A DNA stretch of 64,000 nucleotides, taken from the NCBI RefSeq assembly GCF_000013445.1, contig NC_007796.1:372001-436000 (forward strand), given 5' to 3'. Shown piece after piece: positions 1,515 through 14,024 of the stretch. Each line of letters begins with the position of its first letter. Within the stretch, counting starts at the first letter, position 1. Made by a program: the position numbers and the translations under genes. Below the pieces are notes generated by a model. It saw only the letters and a list, made by a program, of their open reading frames with translations. It searched no databases and was not told where the DNA came from. This DNA comes from Methanospirillum hungatei JF-1 (GTDB lineage Archaea > Halobacteriota > Methanomicrobia > Methanomicrobiales > Methanospirillaceae).

Positions 1515-4232
1515 ATGGTCCGGGATACAGCATCTCATTGCAGGACAGGAATATCTTGGCATTCTCTTTCTGAATATGAGATCTATGAAAAACTTGCAAC
1601 CGGAGAAAAGGGCCTCTCGAGTCAGGAAGCTGCAACCAGAATTCTGGAATTTGGGAAGAATGAGCTTCCTGAATCGAAAAGGGCATCTGTATTCACCATA
1701 TTTCTCAGCCAATTCAAGAGCCCCCTCATCTACGTTCTGATAGCTGCTGCCCTGTTGTCATGGTTTCTTGACCACCTGACCGATACGGCGTTTATCACCG
1801 TTGTCATCCTTGTGAATGCAGTAATTGGAACGATTCAGGAATGGAAAGCTGAACAGAGTGCAAAAGCTCTCCAACAACTCTTTCGAATCACTGCAGTCGT
1901 CACTCGGGACGGGCATGAGATTCGGATTCCTGCAGAGGAACTGGTACCTGGAGATCTGGTCTATCTTGAAGCAGGTACACGGGTCCCGGCAGATCTCAGG
2001 ATAACTCAGGTTGCCGACTGCTCAATTGATGAATCGGTTCTCACCGGGGAGTCTGTTCCGGTTACAAAAAAGGTGACCACTCTTCCTGAAGAAATTCCCA
2101 TAAGTGACCAGGAGAATATGGCGTTTGCCGGGACAACAGTAGTCCGTGGTATCTGCCGAGGTTTTATTGTCAATACGGGAATCTGCACAGAGGTTGGAAA
2201 GATCGCTGTGGCAGTTGCAGATACCACCCTGTCAAAGCCCCCGTTGATCATCAGGATGGAGAAATTCTCCCAGCATATTGCCGTTGCAGTTCTGGTTGCA
2301 ACTGCAGTTCTGGGCATCATTGCGGTTTATCAGGGAATGGGAATCATCGATGTCTTCTTCTTTGCTGTTGCGCTTGCGGTTTCAGCAATACCTGAAGGTC
2401 TCCCGGTAGCTCTGACCGTCGTTCTCTCAATCGCTGCTCACCGGATGGCCGGTCGGCATGTGATAGTCAGGAAGATGACGGCGGTTGAAAGCCTTGGATC
2501 ATGCACTCTGATTGCCAGTGACAAGACCGGCACTCTCACAATGAATGAGCAGACAGCCCATATTGTTCTTCTCCCCGGACGGGATTCGTTTCAGGTCACC
2601 GGGACGGGGTACACTGGTGAAGGGAGCATCCATACGCACAAAGGAGAACATCTTTCAGAGACTGATCTTCATCAGGTACAGCGACTCTGTCATATTGCTG
2701 CTCTTTGCAGCGAAGCTCAGCTGGAGAGAATTGATGAGGGCTGGCATCACTCCGGTGATCCAATCGACGTGGCATTTCTAGCACTTGCACACAAATCGGG
2801 TCTTGATACGTCACTGATACAGAAGTCAGTTGAAAGATCTCTTTTTATTCCTTTTGAAGCAGAACGGAGATATTCAGCAGCGGGATTCACTGACGCAACC
2901 GGGGAACGGTTTGGTATCAAAGGAGCAGCAGAAGCAGTTCTCCCTCATTGTATCAGGATGAGAACAGCTGCCGGTGATGAGGAGGTTGATCAGGCACTCC
3001 TCCTTGCGAAGGCAGAAGAACTTGCAGTGGACGGATACCGGGTTCTTGCAGTTGCCGAAGCAGTATCTCCTGGTATTCCTGAAGATCCTATAAAATCGGG
3101 TCTCCCTCCACTTGTGCTGCTCGGGTATATCGGGTTTATCGACCCGGTTCGGCCCGATGCTCGAGAGTCGGTTGAGTCCTGCCAGAAAGCAGGGGTTACT
3201 GTTGTTATGGTCACCGGTGATCATCCTGCAACCGCCCTTGCCATTGCGAAAACACTGGGGATTGCCGATACTCAGGATCAGATTCTCACCGGAATGGAGA
3301 TAGATGCACTCGGGTCGGTTGATATACCTGAGTTCTTCGACCTTGTCCAGAAGGCCAGGGTATTTGCACGGGTCACCCCGGTCCAGAAACTCTCCATTGT
3401 TGATGCTCTCATCCGGATGGGTCATTTTGTTGCTGTCACCGGAGACGGGGTCAATGATGCTCCTGCCCTTCGGCGTGCCCATATTGGGGTTGCGATGGGG
3501 TCCGGTACCGATATTGCCAAGGATAATGCGGCGATGATCATCACCGATGACCGGTTCTCATCAATTGTTGCTGGTATTGAGGAGGGGCGGTTTGCATATG
3601 ATAATATCAGGAAAGTGACCTATCTGCTCGTCTCAACCGGAGCGGCAGAGGTGATCCTCTTTACCTGCTCTCTTATCGCCCATCTGCCTTTACCCCTCCT
3701 TGCAGTTCAGCTGCTCTGGCTGAATCTCGTAACCAATGGAATTCAGCATGTCGGTCTGGCATTTGAACCTGGTGAGAAGGGTGCTATGAACCGTCCGCCA
3801 CGACCACCGTCACAGGGAATATTCAATCGCCTGATGATCGGCCAGATCCTGGTTTCATCTGTGGTAATGGGGTTGATCGGGTTTATTGCCTGGTACTCCA
3901 TGATCTCAATCGGTGTTGAGGAGAATACTGCACGAAATCTTGCAGTTCTGCTCTTTGTCCTGCTTGAGAATGTCCATGTGTTTAACTGCCGGTCAGAGTA
4001 CGTGTCTGCATTCCAGATGCCCCTGTCAAGAAATCTATTCCTGGTCGGTTCGGTAATTGCAGCTCAGGTGATACACCAGGTTGCCATGCATATCCCAATT
4101 CTTCAGGATGTCCTAGGGCTTCAGCCGGTCAGCCTGTCCCAGTGGGGAGTGCTCTTTGCAGCGGCATGTTTGATTATTGTGATCATGGAGTTGTTTAAGG
4201 TAATCTGGCCACGAGTTAATAAAACCGAATGA
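1515..4232 (+). CDS. P-type cation-transporting ATPase (P2-like)
   Basis: A full-length 905-residue P-type ATPase of the inner membrane. An N-terminal cation-ATPase domain (about 15-85) is followed by TGES at 177-180 (actuator), PEGLP at 293-297 (membrane helix 4), the phosphorylation motif DKTGTLT starting at Asp336, and the hinge GDGVNDAP at 643-650. A C-terminal block of membrane helices completes the protein. Helix 5 keeps a Glu (AAEVILF). Helix 6 reads NLVTNGIQHVG from residue 737, with Asn where calcium pumps usually have Asp, so the transported ion is uncertain. It differs from the second ATPase at 11475-14024 in exactly this ion-binding helix. It is probably a single-gene transcript; two hairpins follow it. 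Confidence 0.95.
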   Translation: MVRDTASHCRTGISWHSLSEYEIYEKLATGEKGLSSQEAATRILEFGKNELPESKRASVFTIFLSQFKSPLIYVLIAAALLSWFLDHLTDTAFITVVILVNAVIGTIQEWKAEQSAKALQQLFRITAVVTRDGHEIRIPAEELVPGDLVYLEAGTRVPADLRITQVADCSIDESVLTGESVPVTKKVTTLPEEIPISDQENMAFAGTTVVRGICRGFIVNTGICTEVGKIAVAVADTTLSKPPLIIRMEKFSQHIAVAVLVATAVLGIIAVYQGMGIIDVFFFAVALAVSAIPEGLPVALTVVLSIAAHRMAGRHVIVRKMTAVESLGSCTLIASDKTGTLTMNEQTAHIVLLPGRDSFQVTGTGYTGEGSIHTHKGEHLSETDLHQVQRLCHIAALCSEAQLERIDEGWHHSGDPIDVAFLALAHKSGLDTSLIQKSVERSLFIPFEAERRYSAAGFTDATGERFGIKGAAEAVLPHCIRMRTAAGDEEVDQALLLAKAEELAVDGYRVLAVAEAVSPGIPEDPIKSGLPPLVLLGYIGFIDPVRPDARESVESCQKAGVTVVMVTGDHPATALAIAKTLGIADTQDQILTGMEIDALGSVDIPEFFDLVQKARVFARVTPVQKLSIVDALIRMGHFVAVTGDGVNDAPALRRAHIGVAMGSGTDIAKDNAAMIITDDRFSSIVAGIEEGRFAYDNIRKVTYLLVSTGAAEVILFTCSLIAHLPLPLLAVQLLWLNLVTNGIQHVGLAFEPGEKGAMNRPPRPPSQGIFNRLMIGQILVSSVVMGLIGFIAWYSMISIGVEENTARNLAVLLFVLLENVHVFNCRSEYVSAFQMPLSRNLFLVGSVIAAQVIHQVAMHIPILQDVLGLQPVSLSQWGVLFAAACLIIVIMELFKVIWPRVNKTE

Positions 4233-4513: not shown

Positions 4514-4756
4514 ATGTCAACAATTATTGAAGTAACGGAAGATTATTTTATTCCCTTAAGAGAAATAAAAGAAATTCTAGGTATTAAACCTCATGATTCA
4601 TTTAAAATTGAAATTTTAAATAATTCTACCATACAATTGAAACGTGTATCCCAAGAGGATTCTCTTATCGATCTCATTGATCATCCTGCAATCCTTGGTC
4701 GGCCTGTTACCTCACAGGAACTTCGAAAAATCGATGATGAAATTTGGGGACAATGA
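4514..4756 (+). CDS. AbrB/MazE-like antitoxin of a PIN toxin pair
   Basis: An 80-residue protein. Residues 1-45 (MSTIIEVTEDYFIPLREIKEILGIKPHD) have the length and beta-rich pattern of a swapped-hairpin AbrB/MazE DNA-binding domain, with an IQLKRV strand. The C-terminal half (EDSLIDLIDHPAILGRP...) would be the toxin-neutralising tail. It overlaps the PIN toxin gene by four bases (ATGA), the usual layout for a translationally coupled antitoxin-toxin operon. It probably represses its own promoter. The call rests on pattern plus context rather than on a strong motif. Confidence 0.75.
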   Translation: MSTIIEVTEDYFIPLREIKEILGIKPHDSFKIEILNNSTIQLKRVSQEDSLIDLIDHPAILGRPVTSQELRKIDDEIWGQ

Positions 4757-5160
4757 ATATCTTTATCGATTCAAATATTCTGATATTTGCTAACCTTGGT
4801 GATTCACCTGAATATCCCATTGTAAGGTCAATTATTCATGATTATGTTGAGAATGATGCTCGGTTTATCATAAATTCCATTATTGTTTCTGAAGTACATT
4901 ATAAATTAAGAAAATTTCTTGGTTCAGAGGAATCGGAAAAAAGAATGATAAAAATCCTTAATTCTTCGCATATAACATATCTACCCATCGATAATTCAAC
5001 AATACTTCGTGCAATTGGTCTTTCAAACCGGCAGAATGTAATGACAAATGATGCGATTATCGGTCAGCATGCCCTTGATGTTGAATCTGATGGAATACTT
5101 ACTGATAATTACAGGGATTTTAAAAAAATTCCCGAGTTACATGTGATTGGTATCTGTTGA
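4753..5160 (+). CDS. PIN-domain ribonuclease toxin (VapC-like)
   Basis: The open frame reaches upstream to a TTG at 4744, but ATG at 4753 is preferred because it makes the ATGA overlap with the antitoxin stop. The 135-residue protein starts MNIFIDSNILIFANLG. It carries the PIN acidic residues: Asp5 in the first strand, Glu in SEVHYKLRKF, Asp in MTNDAIIGQHAL and Asp in GILTDNYRDFKK. These would bind divalent metal for RNA cleavage, with tRNA or mRNA as the usual target in the family. It appears intact, unlike several toxin genes at 42-50 kb. Confidence 0.88.
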   Translation: MNIFIDSNILIFANLGDSPEYPIVRSIIHDYVENDARFIINSIIVSEVHYKLRKFLGSEESEKRMIKILNSSHITYLPIDNSTILRAIGLSNRQNVMTNDAIIGQHALDVESDGILTDNYRDFKKIPELHVIGIC

Positions 5161-6253: not shown

Positions 6254-7108
6254 ATGTTTACAAAAGTCCTGATACCCTATGATTTCTCTGATGACGCTGA
6301 ATACATCATCAGGTGCCTGAAAAACATTCCCCGGATACGTGAAGTTATCCTGGTCCATGTCACCAGAAGTCTGTACCTTGTCTCTTCTCCGGAAAGGGAA
6401 AATCCTGAGGCTGACTATGCCCGGCTGCGACTTGAAAAGGTACGGGATCTGATCGAGATGCCCCGGTCAAAAGTCCGGATCATCGTAGAGGAGATTACCG
6501 GAGGAGAGATCTCTGATGCAGTCATCCGGGTTGCAGAACGTGAGCAGGTCTCACTCATCCTGATGGGCAGAAGAGGGCGGGGAGTCATCGAGACAATACT
6601 GCTGGGAAGTACGGCATGGGATATTCTCCGGTTCTGTCCATCCAGTCTTCTCCTGATCCATCCACCTGAAAACGTTTCAGAGTTCTCACCTGGTGTCCGT
6701 TGTCCGGATATCTTCACACGGGCATTGGTATGTACTGATTTTTCAGAACCTGACATTGAAACTCTTCTTACAGATATTCTTCCCCTGGTTTCATCTGTGG
6801 ATCTCTTCCATGTTGTCTCGAAAGGGGATACAGATGAGGAGATAAATCGTTCGGTGATGGAAGCAGAAGAGAGGTTAAAAAGTATTGTCATTTCCTGCCC
6901 AGAGAAATCCATTCCGGTCAGAACTCATGTCAGGATTGGTGATGCTGCAGATGAGATAATTCGGTTCTCTGAAAAAGAGGATATATCCCTTATCGTGGTA
7001 AAGTCCACCGGAACCCGGGGGTTCGTGCATAAAATCATTGGTGGAACAACAGAGGCAATTGCACGAAATGCTAAAAAACCTCTTTTCATTCTCCGAAGAT
7101 CAGAATAA
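6254..7108 (+). CDS. Tandem universal stress protein (UspA family)
   Basis: 284 residues made of two Usp domains (about 1-138 and 152-283). The first has the nucleotide-binding signature GRRGRGVIETILLGST at 105-120, fitting the G-2X-G-9X-G(S/T) pattern of ATP-binding members. The second has the degenerate counterpart STGTRGFVHKIIGGTTE. Both start with the strand-loop KVLIPYDFSDDA / RALVCTDFSEPD. Tandem Usp proteins are cytoplasmic and usually accompany ion or energy stress genes, which fits the transporter-rich neighbourhood. AAGGTGATAACTG upstream supplies a ribosome site for the 6254 start. A U-rich stretch at 7107-7135 may end transcription. Confidence 0.93.
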   Translation: MFTKVLIPYDFSDDAEYIIRCLKNIPRIREVILVHVTRSLYLVSSPERENPEADYARLRLEKVRDLIEMPRSKVRIIVEEITGGEISDAVIRVAEREQVSLILMGRRGRGVIETILLGSTAWDILRFCPSSLLLIHPPENVSEFSPGVRCPDIFTRALVCTDFSEPDIETLLTDILPLVSSVDLFHVVSKGDTDEEINRSVMEAEERLKSIVISCPEKSIPVRTHVRIGDAADEIIRFSEKEDISLIVVKSTGTRGFVHKIIGGTTEAIARNAKKPLFILRRSE

Positions 7109-7406
7109 TTTTAAATTTTTTCGTGTAATTTTTTTGGGTTTATTATATATTTCAATCGCTGTAAATCTTGCTGGAGATTTGAAGAATGTTCATATCGATA
7201 CTTTATTATGATAGGATATCGTTGTACATTTTATTATCCTGCACTGCATGAGGATTTAGAGTAAACATCGTGAAACGATTGGTATTCTAAAAGTGAACGC
7301 TCATTGGAATTCATCGTATAATCAGAATTTATGATTATATGAAGAAAATTTGCATTATACAATTACGTATCCTATCGGTTGAAAAATCTCCATTATTTAG
7401 ACTCAT

Positions 7407-8105
7407 ATGTTATCAGACTTCAAATCCCAGTTTATTGAAATCTCTAAAGCAATAACTCCAATTATATTGGTCATTTTAATTATCCATTTCCTTTTCATAC
7501 CAGACTTCTCTATATCAAATGCGTTGGTGTTGATCTTAGGCAGCCTGATGGTAACACTGGGTATTGCCCTCTTTCTCGTCGGAGTAAATGTAGGGTTGAT
7601 TCCGATTGGAAATGCCATAGGTTCAGACATTCCCCGTTCCGGTTCAATAGTGATCATTCTCATGACTACCTTTTTTTTAGGGTTTTTAGCAACAATAGCT
7701 GAACCGAATGTCCGGGTTCTGGCTGATATGATTCAGATCGTTTCCGAAAACAGTATAGAGCGGCTCCAATTTATTATGGTGATATCAGTTGGAGGTGGTT
7801 TTTTTATTGCCACCTCAATTTTCAGAATTATTTATAATGTCCCCCTGGCTTACCTTTTTTCCAGCGGGTATCTTCTGGTATTGTTGCTTTTATTTTTTGC
7901 ACCTCCAGACTATGTTCCTATCGCATTTGATGCGGGGGGTGTCACCATTGGGTCAATTAATGGCCCGATATTTTTAGCGATGGGTATTGGTGTTACTTCA
8001 ATCCTCGGGGGTCGCTCAGCTATATCTGATGGATTTGGCCTTATAGGGCTCGCATCACTAGGGTCGGTTATTTCAATTCTTATTATGGGGATTGTGGCAT
8101 TATGA
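7407..8105 (+). CDS. DUF1538 membrane protein, first of a tandem pair
   Basis: A 232-residue very hydrophobic protein with about seven membrane segments. It has the DUF1538 signatures AEPNVRVL at 98-105, AFDAGG at 173-178 followed by a GS.NGP loop, and GFGLIGL near 209. The paralogue immediately downstream has the same motifs at equivalent places, so the two probably form a heteromeric transporter or channel. The stop overlaps the next start by four bases (ATGA). DUF1538 proteins are commonly found as two halves next to a P-II-like protein, as here. The substrate is unknown. The 300 bases upstream contain no gene. Confidence 0.88.
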   Translation: MLSDFKSQFIEISKAITPIILVILIIHFLFIPDFSISNALVLILGSLMVTLGIALFLVGVNVGLIPIGNAIGSDIPRSGSIVIILMTTFFLGFLATIAEPNVRVLADMIQIVSENSIERLQFIMVISVGGGFFIATSIFRIIYNVPLAYLFSSGYLLVLLLLFFAPPDYVPIAFDAGGVTIGSINGPIFLAMGIGVTSILGGRSAISDGFGLIGLASLGSVISILIMGIVAL

Positions 8106-8842
8106 TTTATTTACCGATTGCTGACAATATTGATCATGTCATCGTTGACGTCATTCAGGCGTTGTCACCATTGGTCTTGTTTTTTCTTATTTTGCAGGTC
8201 CTTTCACTGAAACTGCCGAAAGATTATGTTATTAATCTACTGAAGGGACTTCTCATTACACTCATTGGGATGGTCCTGTTCTTCCAGGGGGTTAAGATAG
8301 CATTTCTCCCGGCAGGTCAGAGGATAGGAGAATTATGTGGAACTATTGAGCAGACCTGGTTATTAATTCCATTTGGATTCATGCTGGGCTTTTTATCAAC
8401 ATATGCCGAACCATCAGTCCGGGTTCTCTGTTACCAGGTTGAAACCTCATCAAATGGCTATATTAAGGGCTCTCTCATCCTGTATGCACTTTCAATTGGT
8501 GTAGCCATATCAGTGGGTGTGGGTATGATCAGGATACTGTATGGTTTTCCGTTTCTTCCCATTATCTTCGGTGGATATCTTCTTGTTCTCATTCTGCTAC
8601 GGTTTTGTGATTCTGACTTTATTGGAATTGCATTTGACTCAGGCGGTTTTGCAACCGGTCCGATGGCAGTCACCTTTCTTATGGCATTTGCGGTCGGCGT
8701 TGCTGATTCTATGGGAGGGAGAGATCCACTCCTGGATGGATTTGGAATGATTTCATTAATTTTTCTCACTCCGATTCTTATGTTATTAATTATTGGTATT
8801 ATCTTTAAGATGAAAAAGAAGGAGATGTATCATGATTCATGA
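8102..8842 (+). CDS. DUF1538 membrane protein, second of the pair
   Basis: 246 residues and about seven membrane segments. It repeats the motifs of the previous protein: AEPSVRVL at 102-109, AFDSGG at 177-182 followed by FATGPM, and GFGMISL near 215. It ends with a Lys-rich cytoplasmic tail (KMKKKEMYHDS). The gene overlaps both neighbours (4 bases upstream, 11 bases downstream), so three proteins are likely made in fixed ratio. The conserved AEP..RVL and AFD.GG motifs are candidates for substrate or ion coordination; that is inference. Confidence 0.88.
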   Translation: MIYLPIADNIDHVIVDVIQALSPLVLFFLILQVLSLKLPKDYVINLLKGLLITLIGMVLFFQGVKIAFLPAGQRIGELCGTIEQTWLLIPFGFMLGFLSTYAEPSVRVLCYQVETSSNGYIKGSLILYALSIGVAISVGVGMIRILYGFPFLPIIFGGYLLVLILLRFCDSDFIGIAFDSGGFATGPMAVTFLMAFAVGVADSMGGRDPLLDGFGMISLIFLTPILMLLIIGIIFKMKKKEMYHDS

Positions 8843-9179
8843 AGGATGTAAAAATCTGATTGTGACGATTGTCAAAAAGGGATGGTCTGAGAAGGTAATC
8901 CAGGCATCACGGGAAGCTGGTGCATCCGGAGGAACCGTTCTTATGGGAAGGGGGACGGGAATTCACGAGACCCAGTCAGTCTTCGGTCTTCCAATCGAGC
9001 CGGAAAAAGAGATCATTCTGACAGTGGTGGAAGTGGATCAGACCGAAACGATTCTTTCAGCTATTGAAAGAGCAGCAGAACTCGATAGTCCGGGCATGGG
9101 CATTGCATTTGTCATAAACCTTGAAAAAATCGCTGGTCGGGTTCATATGGCCTGTGGATGCCCTGATAAAACTCAATGA
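8832..9179 (+). CDS. P-II family signalling protein linked to DUF1538
   Basis: A 115-residue GlnB/P-II-like protein. It has the family fold pattern: strand KNLIVTIVKKGWSEKVIQASREAGASGGTVLMGRGTG, a shortened T-loop region (IHETQSVFGLPIEPEKEIILTVV), and the C-terminal GMGIAFVINLEKIAGRVH block. A ribosome site AAGGAG lies before ATG 8832, inside the end of the DUF1538 gene. Classical P-II proteins sense ATP/ADP and 2-oxoglutarate and bind transporters such as AmtB. By analogy this one would gate the DUF1538 pair. No ammonium transporter or glutamine synthetase gene is nearby, so nitrogen control is not implied by context. It ends in a Cys-containing tail (MACGCPDKTQ). Confidence 0.88.
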   Translation: MIHEGCKNLIVTIVKKGWSEKVIQASREAGASGGTVLMGRGTGIHETQSVFGLPIEPEKEIILTVVEVDQTETILSAIERAAELDSPGMGIAFVINLEKIAGRVHMACGCPDKTQ

Positions 9180-11309: not shown

Positions 11310-11474
11310 AGATAAACTCTGATAATACGTTTATCTCCGAATGGGATAAGGATTCATCATCCGATAAGCTACCTGAACCGAATGACCTGTTCTGTTCTTC
11401 TGAAAATCGATAGCTCACTGCAGAGTATCTGCCACAATTTTGAAATTCTCAGAAGACATGAGTATGGTATCACC

Positions 11475-14024
11475 ATGATCCCAACTCAGGACCTGGAACG
11501 TTTTGGAACTGACGGCTTGTCTTCCGAAACGGTTTTGGAATCCAGAAAACTTTATGGGAAGAACGAATTAACTCCCCCGAAGCGGATACCGGTCTGGAAA
11601 CAATATCTTGAAAAATATCAGGATCCGATCATCCGCATTCTGCTCGTTGCAGTCGTTCTTTCCGCTCTCGTTGCATTACTAGAGGGCGAAAGCCTCATTG
11701 ATACCCTTGGAATCGCTCTTGCAGTCATCCTGGCAACAACGATTGCATTCCTGACCGAGTTCAGGAGTAACCGGGCGTTTGATGCATTAAATGCCATGCG
11801 TGAGGATACCGGTGTTAAAGTTATCAGAGATGGCAGTCCGGGCAGCATTCCGATGCGGGATATCGTCGTTGGCGATGTAATTCTGCTGGAAGCTGGAGAT
11901 ATGGTTCCGGCAGACGGGTACCTCCTCGTTGCAGCTGAGACCGAAGCAGATGAGTCAGCCTTTACCGGAGAGAGCGAACCGGTGAAGAAAATTGTTCAGG
12001 ATTCTGTCCTCAAAGGTTCCTACATTACCGGTGGCAGGGCAACCATGTTTGCTGCAGCTGTTGGTGACCGGACAAAAATGGGGCAGATTGCGTCGTCACT
12101 CACCGAAGGGACACGACCTGAAACCCCGCTTCAGATTAAACTCCATGATCTCGCCCACCTTATCAGTAAATTCGGGTACATCATGGCCGGGCTGATTATC
12201 GGGGTTGTTTTAATTCAGGATTTTGTTATTGGTGTTCCTCCACAGACTCCGATTGAGATCTTCAGTGTGATCCTGCATGCCTGCATGTTTGCCGTTGTCA
12301 TCATCGTGGTCTCTGTTCCAGAAGGTCTTCCGGTGAGTGTTACGGTATCACTTGCTCTGACCATGGGGAAGATGACCAGAGCAAAAAGCCTGGTAAGACG
12401 ACTTATTGCCTGTGAGACGGTCGGTTCGGTGACGGTCATATGCACGGATAAAACCGGTACCCTTACTATGAATCAGATGGAGGTTGCCGCATCATCTGTA
12501 GAAGTGCCTGAAATCTCCAGCGGCCTGCCGAAAACCCCCTCTGAATGGATAACCCTCAATGCTGCGGTGAACAGCACGGCAGAACTGGAGTATCATGAGG
12601 ATCGGTTGATCACCGTTGGAAACTCAACCGAGGCTGCCCTTCTCAGATGGCTGCACCGGACCGGAGTCAGCTACACTGATATCCGGCATGCCTGGCCTTC
12701 CATCTCCCAGGATTTTTTCAACTCCAAGAAGAAACAGATGTCAACCATCTTTGAGTACGACTCAAAACGGTATATCCTGGTGAAAGGTGCACCGGAGATC
12801 GTTGCAGCCAGGTGCAGTCCCGCTCCTGATCTCTCCAATCTTCATCATCTTGCACAGCGGGCCATGCGAACCCTTGCGTTTGCCCACGGAGAACTGAAAC
12901 CGGATGGTGAGGAACCTTCAACACTCATCTGGGACGGGTATGTGGGAATTCGTGATGAAGTCCGTCCTGATGTTCCGGAGGCAGTGAAAACCTGTAATGA
13001 TGCCGGTATAACCGTTAAAATGGTGACCGGGGACAGCCCTGAGACTGCAACGGCAATCGCACGGGAGACAGGAATTTTCAGGGATGGGAAGGTCATGACC
13101 GGCCCGGAGTTTCGTGAGTTATCTGATGAAAAGCGACGGGATATCGTTTCTGATCTCCAGGTTCTTGCACGATCCGAGCCTCATGACAAACTTCTCCTGG
13201 TCAAGGCCCTGCAGGCAAACGGGGAAGTCGTGGCCGTTACCGGTGACGGGACAAATGATGCCCCGGCCCTTCGGAATGCTGATGTGGGACTGGCCATGGG
13301 GATTGCCGGAACTGAGGTTGCGAGAGAGGCAAGTGACATCATTCTTCTTGATGACTCATTCCCGACCATAGAGCGTGCGGTCTGGTGGGGTCGGGCTCTC
13401 TATGAAAACATCCAGCGGTTTTTGATCTTCCAGCTCACCATCAACATCTCCGCTGCGATACTGACATTTATCTCTCCGCTTCTTGGTTTTCCCCCGCCGT
13501 TTACCATCATCCAGTTACTCTGGATCAATATCATCATGGACTCGCTGGCAGCCCTTGCACTCTGTTCAGAGGCTCCTCATCCTGCTCTCATGAACCGAAA
13601 ACCCATACCCAGAACCGCTTCGGTAATCACACCCTACATGAAATTTTCGATCCTGATAACGGCTATGATTTATATTGTAGTCGGCATTACCTGTATGATA
13701 ACCGGTCTTCCGTTCATGGAGACCCCCGAACAGCAGGCAACCGCGTTCTTTGCCGGTTTTGTAATCGCCCAGGTCTGGAACGGGTTTAACTGCCGGGGTA
13801 TTAACGGGATCATGCCTCCGCTGTTCAGAGGCAACCCGGTATTTTTTGTTATAATGGGACTTATTGTTGGAATACAGATCCTTATTGTCCAGTATGGGGG
13901 AGAGATCTTTGATACGGTTCCCTTAACTCCCCTGCAATGGATAGTGATCGGAATCGGGACGATGCCTGTCCTTCTCATATGGCCGTTCCTTCGGTTTTAC
14001 CACCAGAGGACAAAAAAATTATAA
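11475..14024 (+). CDS. P-type calcium-translocating ATPase, PMCA-like
   Basis: The frame is open from 11382, but ATG 11475 (MIPTQDLERFGTDGLS) begins at the usual N-terminus of the family. From that start the protein has 849 residues. Motifs are TGES (actuator), PEGLP in helix 4, DKTGTLT with phosphorylated Asp325, and GDGTNDAP at 590-597. Helix 6 reads NIIMDSLAALAL from residue 685, the plasma-membrane Ca-ATPase pattern, and helix 5 has Asn (FQLTINIS) rather than Glu. Known relatives export calcium with one binding site. It ends six bases inside the convergent CNNM-like gene. Confidence 0.94.
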   Translation: MIPTQDLERFGTDGLSSETVLESRKLYGKNELTPPKRIPVWKQYLEKYQDPIIRILLVAVVLSALVALLEGESLIDTLGIALAVILATTIAFLTEFRSNRAFDALNAMREDTGVKVIRDGSPGSIPMRDIVVGDVILLEAGDMVPADGYLLVAAETEADESAFTGESEPVKKIVQDSVLKGSYITGGRATMFAAAVGDRTKMGQIASSLTEGTRPETPLQIKLHDLAHLISKFGYIMAGLIIGVVLIQDFVIGVPPQTPIEIFSVILHACMFAVVIIVVSVPEGLPVSVTVSLALTMGKMTRAKSLVRRLIACETVGSVTVICTDKTGTLTMNQMEVAASSVEVPEISSGLPKTPSEWITLNAAVNSTAELEYHEDRLITVGNSTEAALLRWLHRTGVSYTDIRHAWPSISQDFFNSKKKQMSTIFEYDSKRYILVKGAPEIVAARCSPAPDLSNLHHLAQRAMRTLAFAHGELKPDGEEPSTLIWDGYVGIRDEVRPDVPEAVKTCNDAGITVKMVTGDSPETATAIARETGIFRDGKVMTGPEFRELSDEKRRDIVSDLQVLARSEPHDKLLLVKALQANGEVVAVTGDGTNDAPALRNADVGLAMGIAGTEVAREASDIILLDDSFPTIERAVWWGRALYENIQRFLIFQLTINISAAILTFISPLLGFPPPFTIIQLLWINIIMDSLAALALCSEAPHPALMNRKPIPRTASVITPYMKFSILITAMIYIVVGITCMITGLPFMETPEQQATAFFAGFVIAQVWNGFNCRGINGIMPPLFRGNPVFFVIMGLIVGIQILIVQYGGEIFDTVPLTPLQWIVIGIGTMPVLLIWPFLRFYHQRTKKL

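Follow-up and report, generated by a model that had tools for sequence, protein, structure and literature searches.

The question raised by this locus is what two membrane proteins of the DUF1538 family do together, and what part is played by the P-II protein encoded directly behind them. The window, i.e. the whole 64,000-nucleotide stretch of Methanospirillum hungatei JF-1 DNA that was analysed, carries on its + strand the genes for subunit A (7407..8105, 232 aa, in the UmpA position), subunit B (8102..8842, 246 aa, in the UmpB position) and a P-II protein of the DUF1538-associated subtype (8832..9179, 115 aa). The stop codon of A and the start codon of B overlap by 4 bases in the sequence ATGA (8102..8105, + strand), the B and P-II genes overlap by 11 bases, and an AAGGAG-like stretch read from the sequence within the 3' end of B (approximately 8820..8825, + strand) is a possible ribosome-binding site for the P-II gene. 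The three ORFs and both overlaps are as described in the first-pass annotation, and the AEP.VRVL and AFD.GG motifs it had noticed in both membrane proteins are real, appearing at matching positions as IAEPNVRVL and IAFDAGG in A and as YAEPSVRVL and IAFDSGG in B. Both proteins match DUF1538 (Pfam PF07556) above the curated cut-off of 22.6 bits, with 205.9 bits (5.7e-61) over positions 1–211 of 211 for A and 229.1 bits (4.6e-68) over positions 2–211 for B. They share 32 % identity and, on this comparison, are paralogues. The P-II protein matches PF00543 with 35 bits (1.8e-8) against a cut-off of 25, and includes the motifs GRGTGIHE...IEPEKE and PGxGIAFV. Its N-terminus, MIHEGC (8832–8850), contains one cysteine, while the P-II proteins of several other Methanomicrobiales (loci L004, L012, L015 and L017) start with MICEGC and have two cysteines ahead of the first strand, for which a redox or metal role is possible.

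The association of P-II with DUF1538 was examined in 206 distinct systems, which were gathered by DUF1538 alone, P-II never being a criterion, from 80 genome records representing many phyla and from Pseudomonadota via the UmpB model. In the complete systems examined, including the trio in the window, DUF1538 occurs as a homologous pair or as a fused double domain. A P-II gene adjoins DUF1538 in 201 of the 206 and, of the remaining five, four are truncated at a contig end, leaving a single true exception. Among 61 related genomes, DUF1538 is present in 21, either paired or fused into a double, with P-II adjacent in every case, and a P-II of the DUF1538 type was detected in all 21 holders (profile scores of at least 100 bits) and in none of the 40 genomes lacking DUF1538 (scores of 21.3 bits or less). 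Chance neighbourhood was ruled out by this linkage and co-occurrence, and such genome comparisons strongly support P-II as a dedicated partner of the DUF1538 pair. No published link between DUF1538 and P-II was found in a search confined to openly available, non-subscription papers. The one true exception is Metabacillus lacus (L062), where a genome-wide search for a P-II of the DUF1538 type found nothing. There, the gene after the DUF1538 pair (L062:4279-6775) encodes a YitT/DUF2179 membrane protein, a type with a C-terminal domain that has been reported to be P-II-like (PMC6516651).

The number of P-II domains also varies with the form of DUF1538. Split pairs mostly have one P-II, some having a doubled one, fused pairs mostly have a doubled P-II, and a few fused pairs of 620–650 residues have a tripled one. 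In the last group (L211:899-4116, also L203, L204 and L205) the fused pair is followed by a protein of about 410–420 residues with three P-II domains. This co-variation is as would be expected of direct partners, though it falls short of proof of contact. DUF1538 was also found in nine plasmid records, with P-II in all five of those examined. In a conjugative Chelativorans plasmid (L163:3714-5052), the first DUF1538 gene is annotated in a much shortened form (273 bases) and is followed by an intact second DUF1538 gene and a P-II gene. Seven records labelled as phage contain DUF1538, but all are short, lack annotation and derive from Listeria or faecal samples. They are probably host DNA, and a phage origin was therefore rejected.

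No constant third neighbour, which was sought as a clue to the substrate, was found across the Methanomicrobiales loci or the loci of the 80 genome records. In 5 of 15 Methanomicrobiales loci, a universal stress protein gene is found close to the trio, and in the window a tandem universal stress protein (6254–7108) is encoded upstream of it. The region is flanked by two genes for P-type cation ATPases (1515–4232 and 11382–14024). Between these lie genes for EamA, universal stress and M48 protease proteins and, judging by the gene content, the surroundings may constitute a local cluster devoted to ions and stress. Genes for a small 80-aa protein and a PIN-domain protein (4514–5160) look like a toxin-antitoxin pair.

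A function for DUF1538 pairs is indicated by UmpAB of Halomonas zhaodongensis, the product of two overlapping DUF1538 genes. Salt tolerance was restored to Escherichia coli KNabc only when umpA and umpB were co-expressed, UmpB was co-immunoprecipitated with UmpA, showing a heterodimer, and Na+(Li+,K+)/H+ antiport, optimal at pH 9, was observed in everted vesicles (PMC5484666). The antiport activity comes from this single laboratory report. DUF1538 was also listed among the genes informative for growth pH in a machine-learning study (PMC13255231). The first-pass annotation had proposed an uncharacterised heteromeric transporter with its own P-II regulator and an unknown substrate. The heteromeric transporter with a dedicated P-II partner has held up, given the 201/206 linkage and the strict co-occurrence across 61 genomes, but "uncharacterised" and "substrate unknown" must be withdrawn, as a DUF1538 pair has been on record as a cation/proton antiporter since 2017 (PMC5484666) and NCBIfam models for both subunits exist.

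Like UmpA and UmpB, A and B are homologous membrane proteins that would act as a pair and are encoded by adjacent, slightly overlapping genes; they share the AEP and FDSGG motifs with the UmpAB clade, and P-II genes adjoin the close relatives of UmpAB as well. However, A and B score only 116.8 and 119 bits with the NCBIfam UmpA model (NF041627; 9.4e-34 for A) and 89.6 and 91.9 bits with the UmpB model (NF041628), against equivalog cut-offs of 490 and 500 bits, respectively, and neither can be called an equivalog. As these scores are clear but far below the cut-offs, they support the kind of transporter and not the exact substrate, which may differ from that of UmpAB. That A and B form a transporter is strongly supported. 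An unlikely, though not negligible, reading is that they are a P-II-controlled transporter for something else, e.g. a metabolite or a small anion such as bicarbonate, and that the Na+/H+ phenotype of UmpAB is indirect or specific to a halophile clade. The low model scores fit this reading, as do the control of a bicarbonate transporter by the PII-like SbtB (PMC10710835) and the fact that many holders of DUF1538 are not halophiles but methanogens or Clostridia of the gut. Against it stand the cation/proton exchange in everted vesicles and the salt tolerance conferred only by the pair in the Halomonas case (PMC5484666), the growth pH association, and the conservation of the same Glu, Arg, Tyr and Asp residues from methanogens to gammaproteobacteria.

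The UmpAB publication, unlike what is seen in the window, reports no P-II; four ORFs were described on the cloned fragment and P-II is absent from the description (PMC5484666). In the closest UmpAB relatives that were fetched, among them G473, whose UmpB exceeds the NCBIfam cut-off, the genes run P-II, A, B, P-II, CBS-pair protein, fused DUF1538 pair, P-II, CBS-pair protein. We infer that in H. zhaodongensis a P-II gene may lie just beyond the cloned fragment. In the UmpAB clade, P-II is often accompanied by a CBS-pair protein. The related gammaproteobacterial loci differ from the trio in the window in encoding such extra proteins, whose CBS domains were confirmed, and these two-CBS-domain proteins are found immediately 3' of P-II (L207:4919-5323 and 7217-7603; L242:3838-4248), which suggests a second adenylate-binding regulator.

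The orientation of the two subunits was assessed from the distribution of positive charge in 183 A-B pairs. The excess of K/R alternates over eight matching loops and is of opposite sign in A and B, with K/R counts (A vs B) of 1.0 vs 0.1 at the N-terminus, 0.19 vs 2.23 in the first loop, 2.26 vs 0.98 in the 65–80 loop and 0.14 vs 1.33 at the C-terminal end. According to the positive-inside rule, A is predicted to have its N-terminus inside and its C-terminus outside, and B the inverse, with its C-terminus (KMKKKE tail) inside; the patterns would fit seven membrane crossings per subunit. In the fused forms, the linker is acidic and poor in K/R, as for a linker lying outside. Four residues, namely Glu, Arg, Tyr and Asp, are conserved in both halves in at least 98 % of the 183 pairs (E99, R140, Y155 and D175 in A; E103, R144, Y159 and D179 in B), at positions common to methanogens through gammaproteobacteria, making them natural candidates for the ion/proton site. 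The opposite charge patterns make it probable that A and B are an inverted pair built around these residues.

Rows from plasmid records were excluded from the input to structure prediction. An AlphaFold2 model of a fused relative (L021) had a mean pLDDT of 89.4 and a pTM of 0.88, with helices interrupted at the AEP and FDSGG motifs. No solved structure is convincingly related to DUF1538 by sequence, and a Foldseek search of the PDB with the fused model gave no match at E ≤0.001, to known antiporter folds (NhaA-like, NCX/CaCA and others) or to any other. In a second fold search, NCX_Mj entries took the top five places, but even the best of them (VIA Z 5.8, rmsd 5.7, 176 aligned) lies within the background for helical models, and kinship with NCX is not claimed.

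The model of the P-II protein (pLDDT 87) has the beta-alpha-beta-beta-alpha-beta order and its closest folds are GlnB and GlnK (4cnz: Z 12.8, rmsd 2.3, 95 residues), with SbtB also matched. When 64 sequences of this P-II family were compared with GlnK of the host genome, Gly27, Thr29, Gly37, Gly87, Gly89 and Lys58 (in 55 of 64) were found to be kept. Gln39 is replaced by Gly in 59 of 64, Lys90 by Ile in 50 and Arg101 by Gly in 59, Arg103 is not conserved, and about six residues are missing from the T-loop, the alignment here being less certain than in the core and the weakest part of the ligand reading. In classical GlnB/GlnK, we take Gln39 and Lys58 to be 2-oxoglutarate/Mg-ATP ligands and Lys90, Arg101 and Arg103 to be phosphate ligands. 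Thus, the family retains only Lys58 of the residues that mark a classical nitrogen sensor. The adenine pocket looks to be kept and the 2-oxoglutarate and triphosphate ligands look to be lost, so an adenylate would be the expected ligand, and a role as a 2-oxoglutarate nitrogen sensor appears unlikely.

The same residues weigh heavily on the proposal that this P-II is a classical 2-oxoglutarate/ATP sensor and that a nitrogen compound is either the substrate of the pair or a signal to it, by analogy with GlnK-AmtB, which we regard as very improbable. The P-II fold is nearest to GlnK and GlnB, with a loop that could enter a transporter, and the placing of P-II behind the gene for a membrane protein matches amtB-glnK, which also occurs in the host genome. 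However, the shorter T-loop and the loss of Gln39 and the Arg pair separate the P-II in the window from GlnK, no sequence relationship between DUF1538 and Amt can be recognised, and P-II is the sole constant neighbour. The first-pass statement that no nitrogen genes are nearby was confirmed: two further P-II genes lie elsewhere in the genome and one of them, distinct from that in the window, is a classical glnK behind amtB (L032).

Control of membrane transporters by P-II proteins has precedents in AmtB, SbtA, Nrt and Urt (PMC10710835). The trio resembles SbtA-SbtB in that a transporter has its own PII-like regulator, but SbtA belongs to a different transporter family, GlnK/GlnB rank above SbtB as matches for the P-II in the window, and a C-terminal cysteine loop is absent from the family consensus. 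That review covers P-II-controlled ammonium, nitrate, urea and bicarbonate transporters and lists no cation/proton antiporter (PMC10710835). A quite unlikely possibility is that the P-II is co-expressed with A and B but does not gate the pair, and instead informs targets elsewhere of transport activity. Several targets are possible for P-II proteins (PMC10710835), and UmpAB functioned in E. coli from a clone for which no P-II is described (PMC5484666), which also counts against a need for P-II in transport. The restriction of this P-II type, among the 61 relatives, to genomes with DUF1538 and the tracking of its domain number with the DUF1538 form count against targets elsewhere. That P-II is obligate is countered by the natural pair of Metabacillus lacus. 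E. coli has its own GlnB and GlnK. As UmpAB was active there without its own P-II, the P-II is more likely to be a regulator than a catalytic subunit, and gene linkage makes A and B its probable target.

We therefore favour, with a probability of roughly 60 %, an UmpAB-type monovalent-cation/proton antiporter gated by an adenine-nucleotide-sensing P-II. A and B together would form one heteromeric secondary transporter that swaps protons against monovalent cations, namely Na+ and perhaps K+ or Li+, with each subunit contributing one inverted half. Breaks in the helices at AEP and FD(A/S)GG would bring the Glu and Asp of both halves close to the membrane centre, much as in other inverted-repeat antiporters. 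The P-II, translated together with the pair, would work in the cytoplasm as a trimer that senses the adenine-nucleotide state through AMP/ADP/ATP or a derivative rather than 2-oxoglutarate. By way of its short T-loop it would dock on the cytoplasmic side of the exchanger and turn it off or on. The ion used in M. hungatei, the P-II trimer, its docking, its ligand and the sign of regulation are inferred.

The genome paper for M. hungatei names three Na+/H+ antiporters (PMC4704411), and the A/B pair is a probable fourth. Extension to the class is more tentative and, in our estimation, falls a little short of an even chance: DUF1538 systems in general may be P-II-gated cation/proton antiporters in which P-II makes Na+ or K+/H+ exchange responsive to the adenylate state, the exchanger being an inverted two-protein structure with no significant match to a solved fold, with P-II doubled or tripled in many lineages and a CBS-pair protein added in gammaproteobacteria. 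We found no report of P-II control of a cation/proton antiporter in the open, non-subscription literature and, if the class-wide reading is true, DUF1538 systems would be the first such antiporters known to be under P-II control. The sole characterised DUF1538 pair was studied without a P-II, and the near-constant presence of P-II, the characterised clade included, suggests that the regulatory subunit of a widespread antiporter family has been missed. The role of the DUF1538-linked P-II proteins thus becomes a question for direct vesicle assay.
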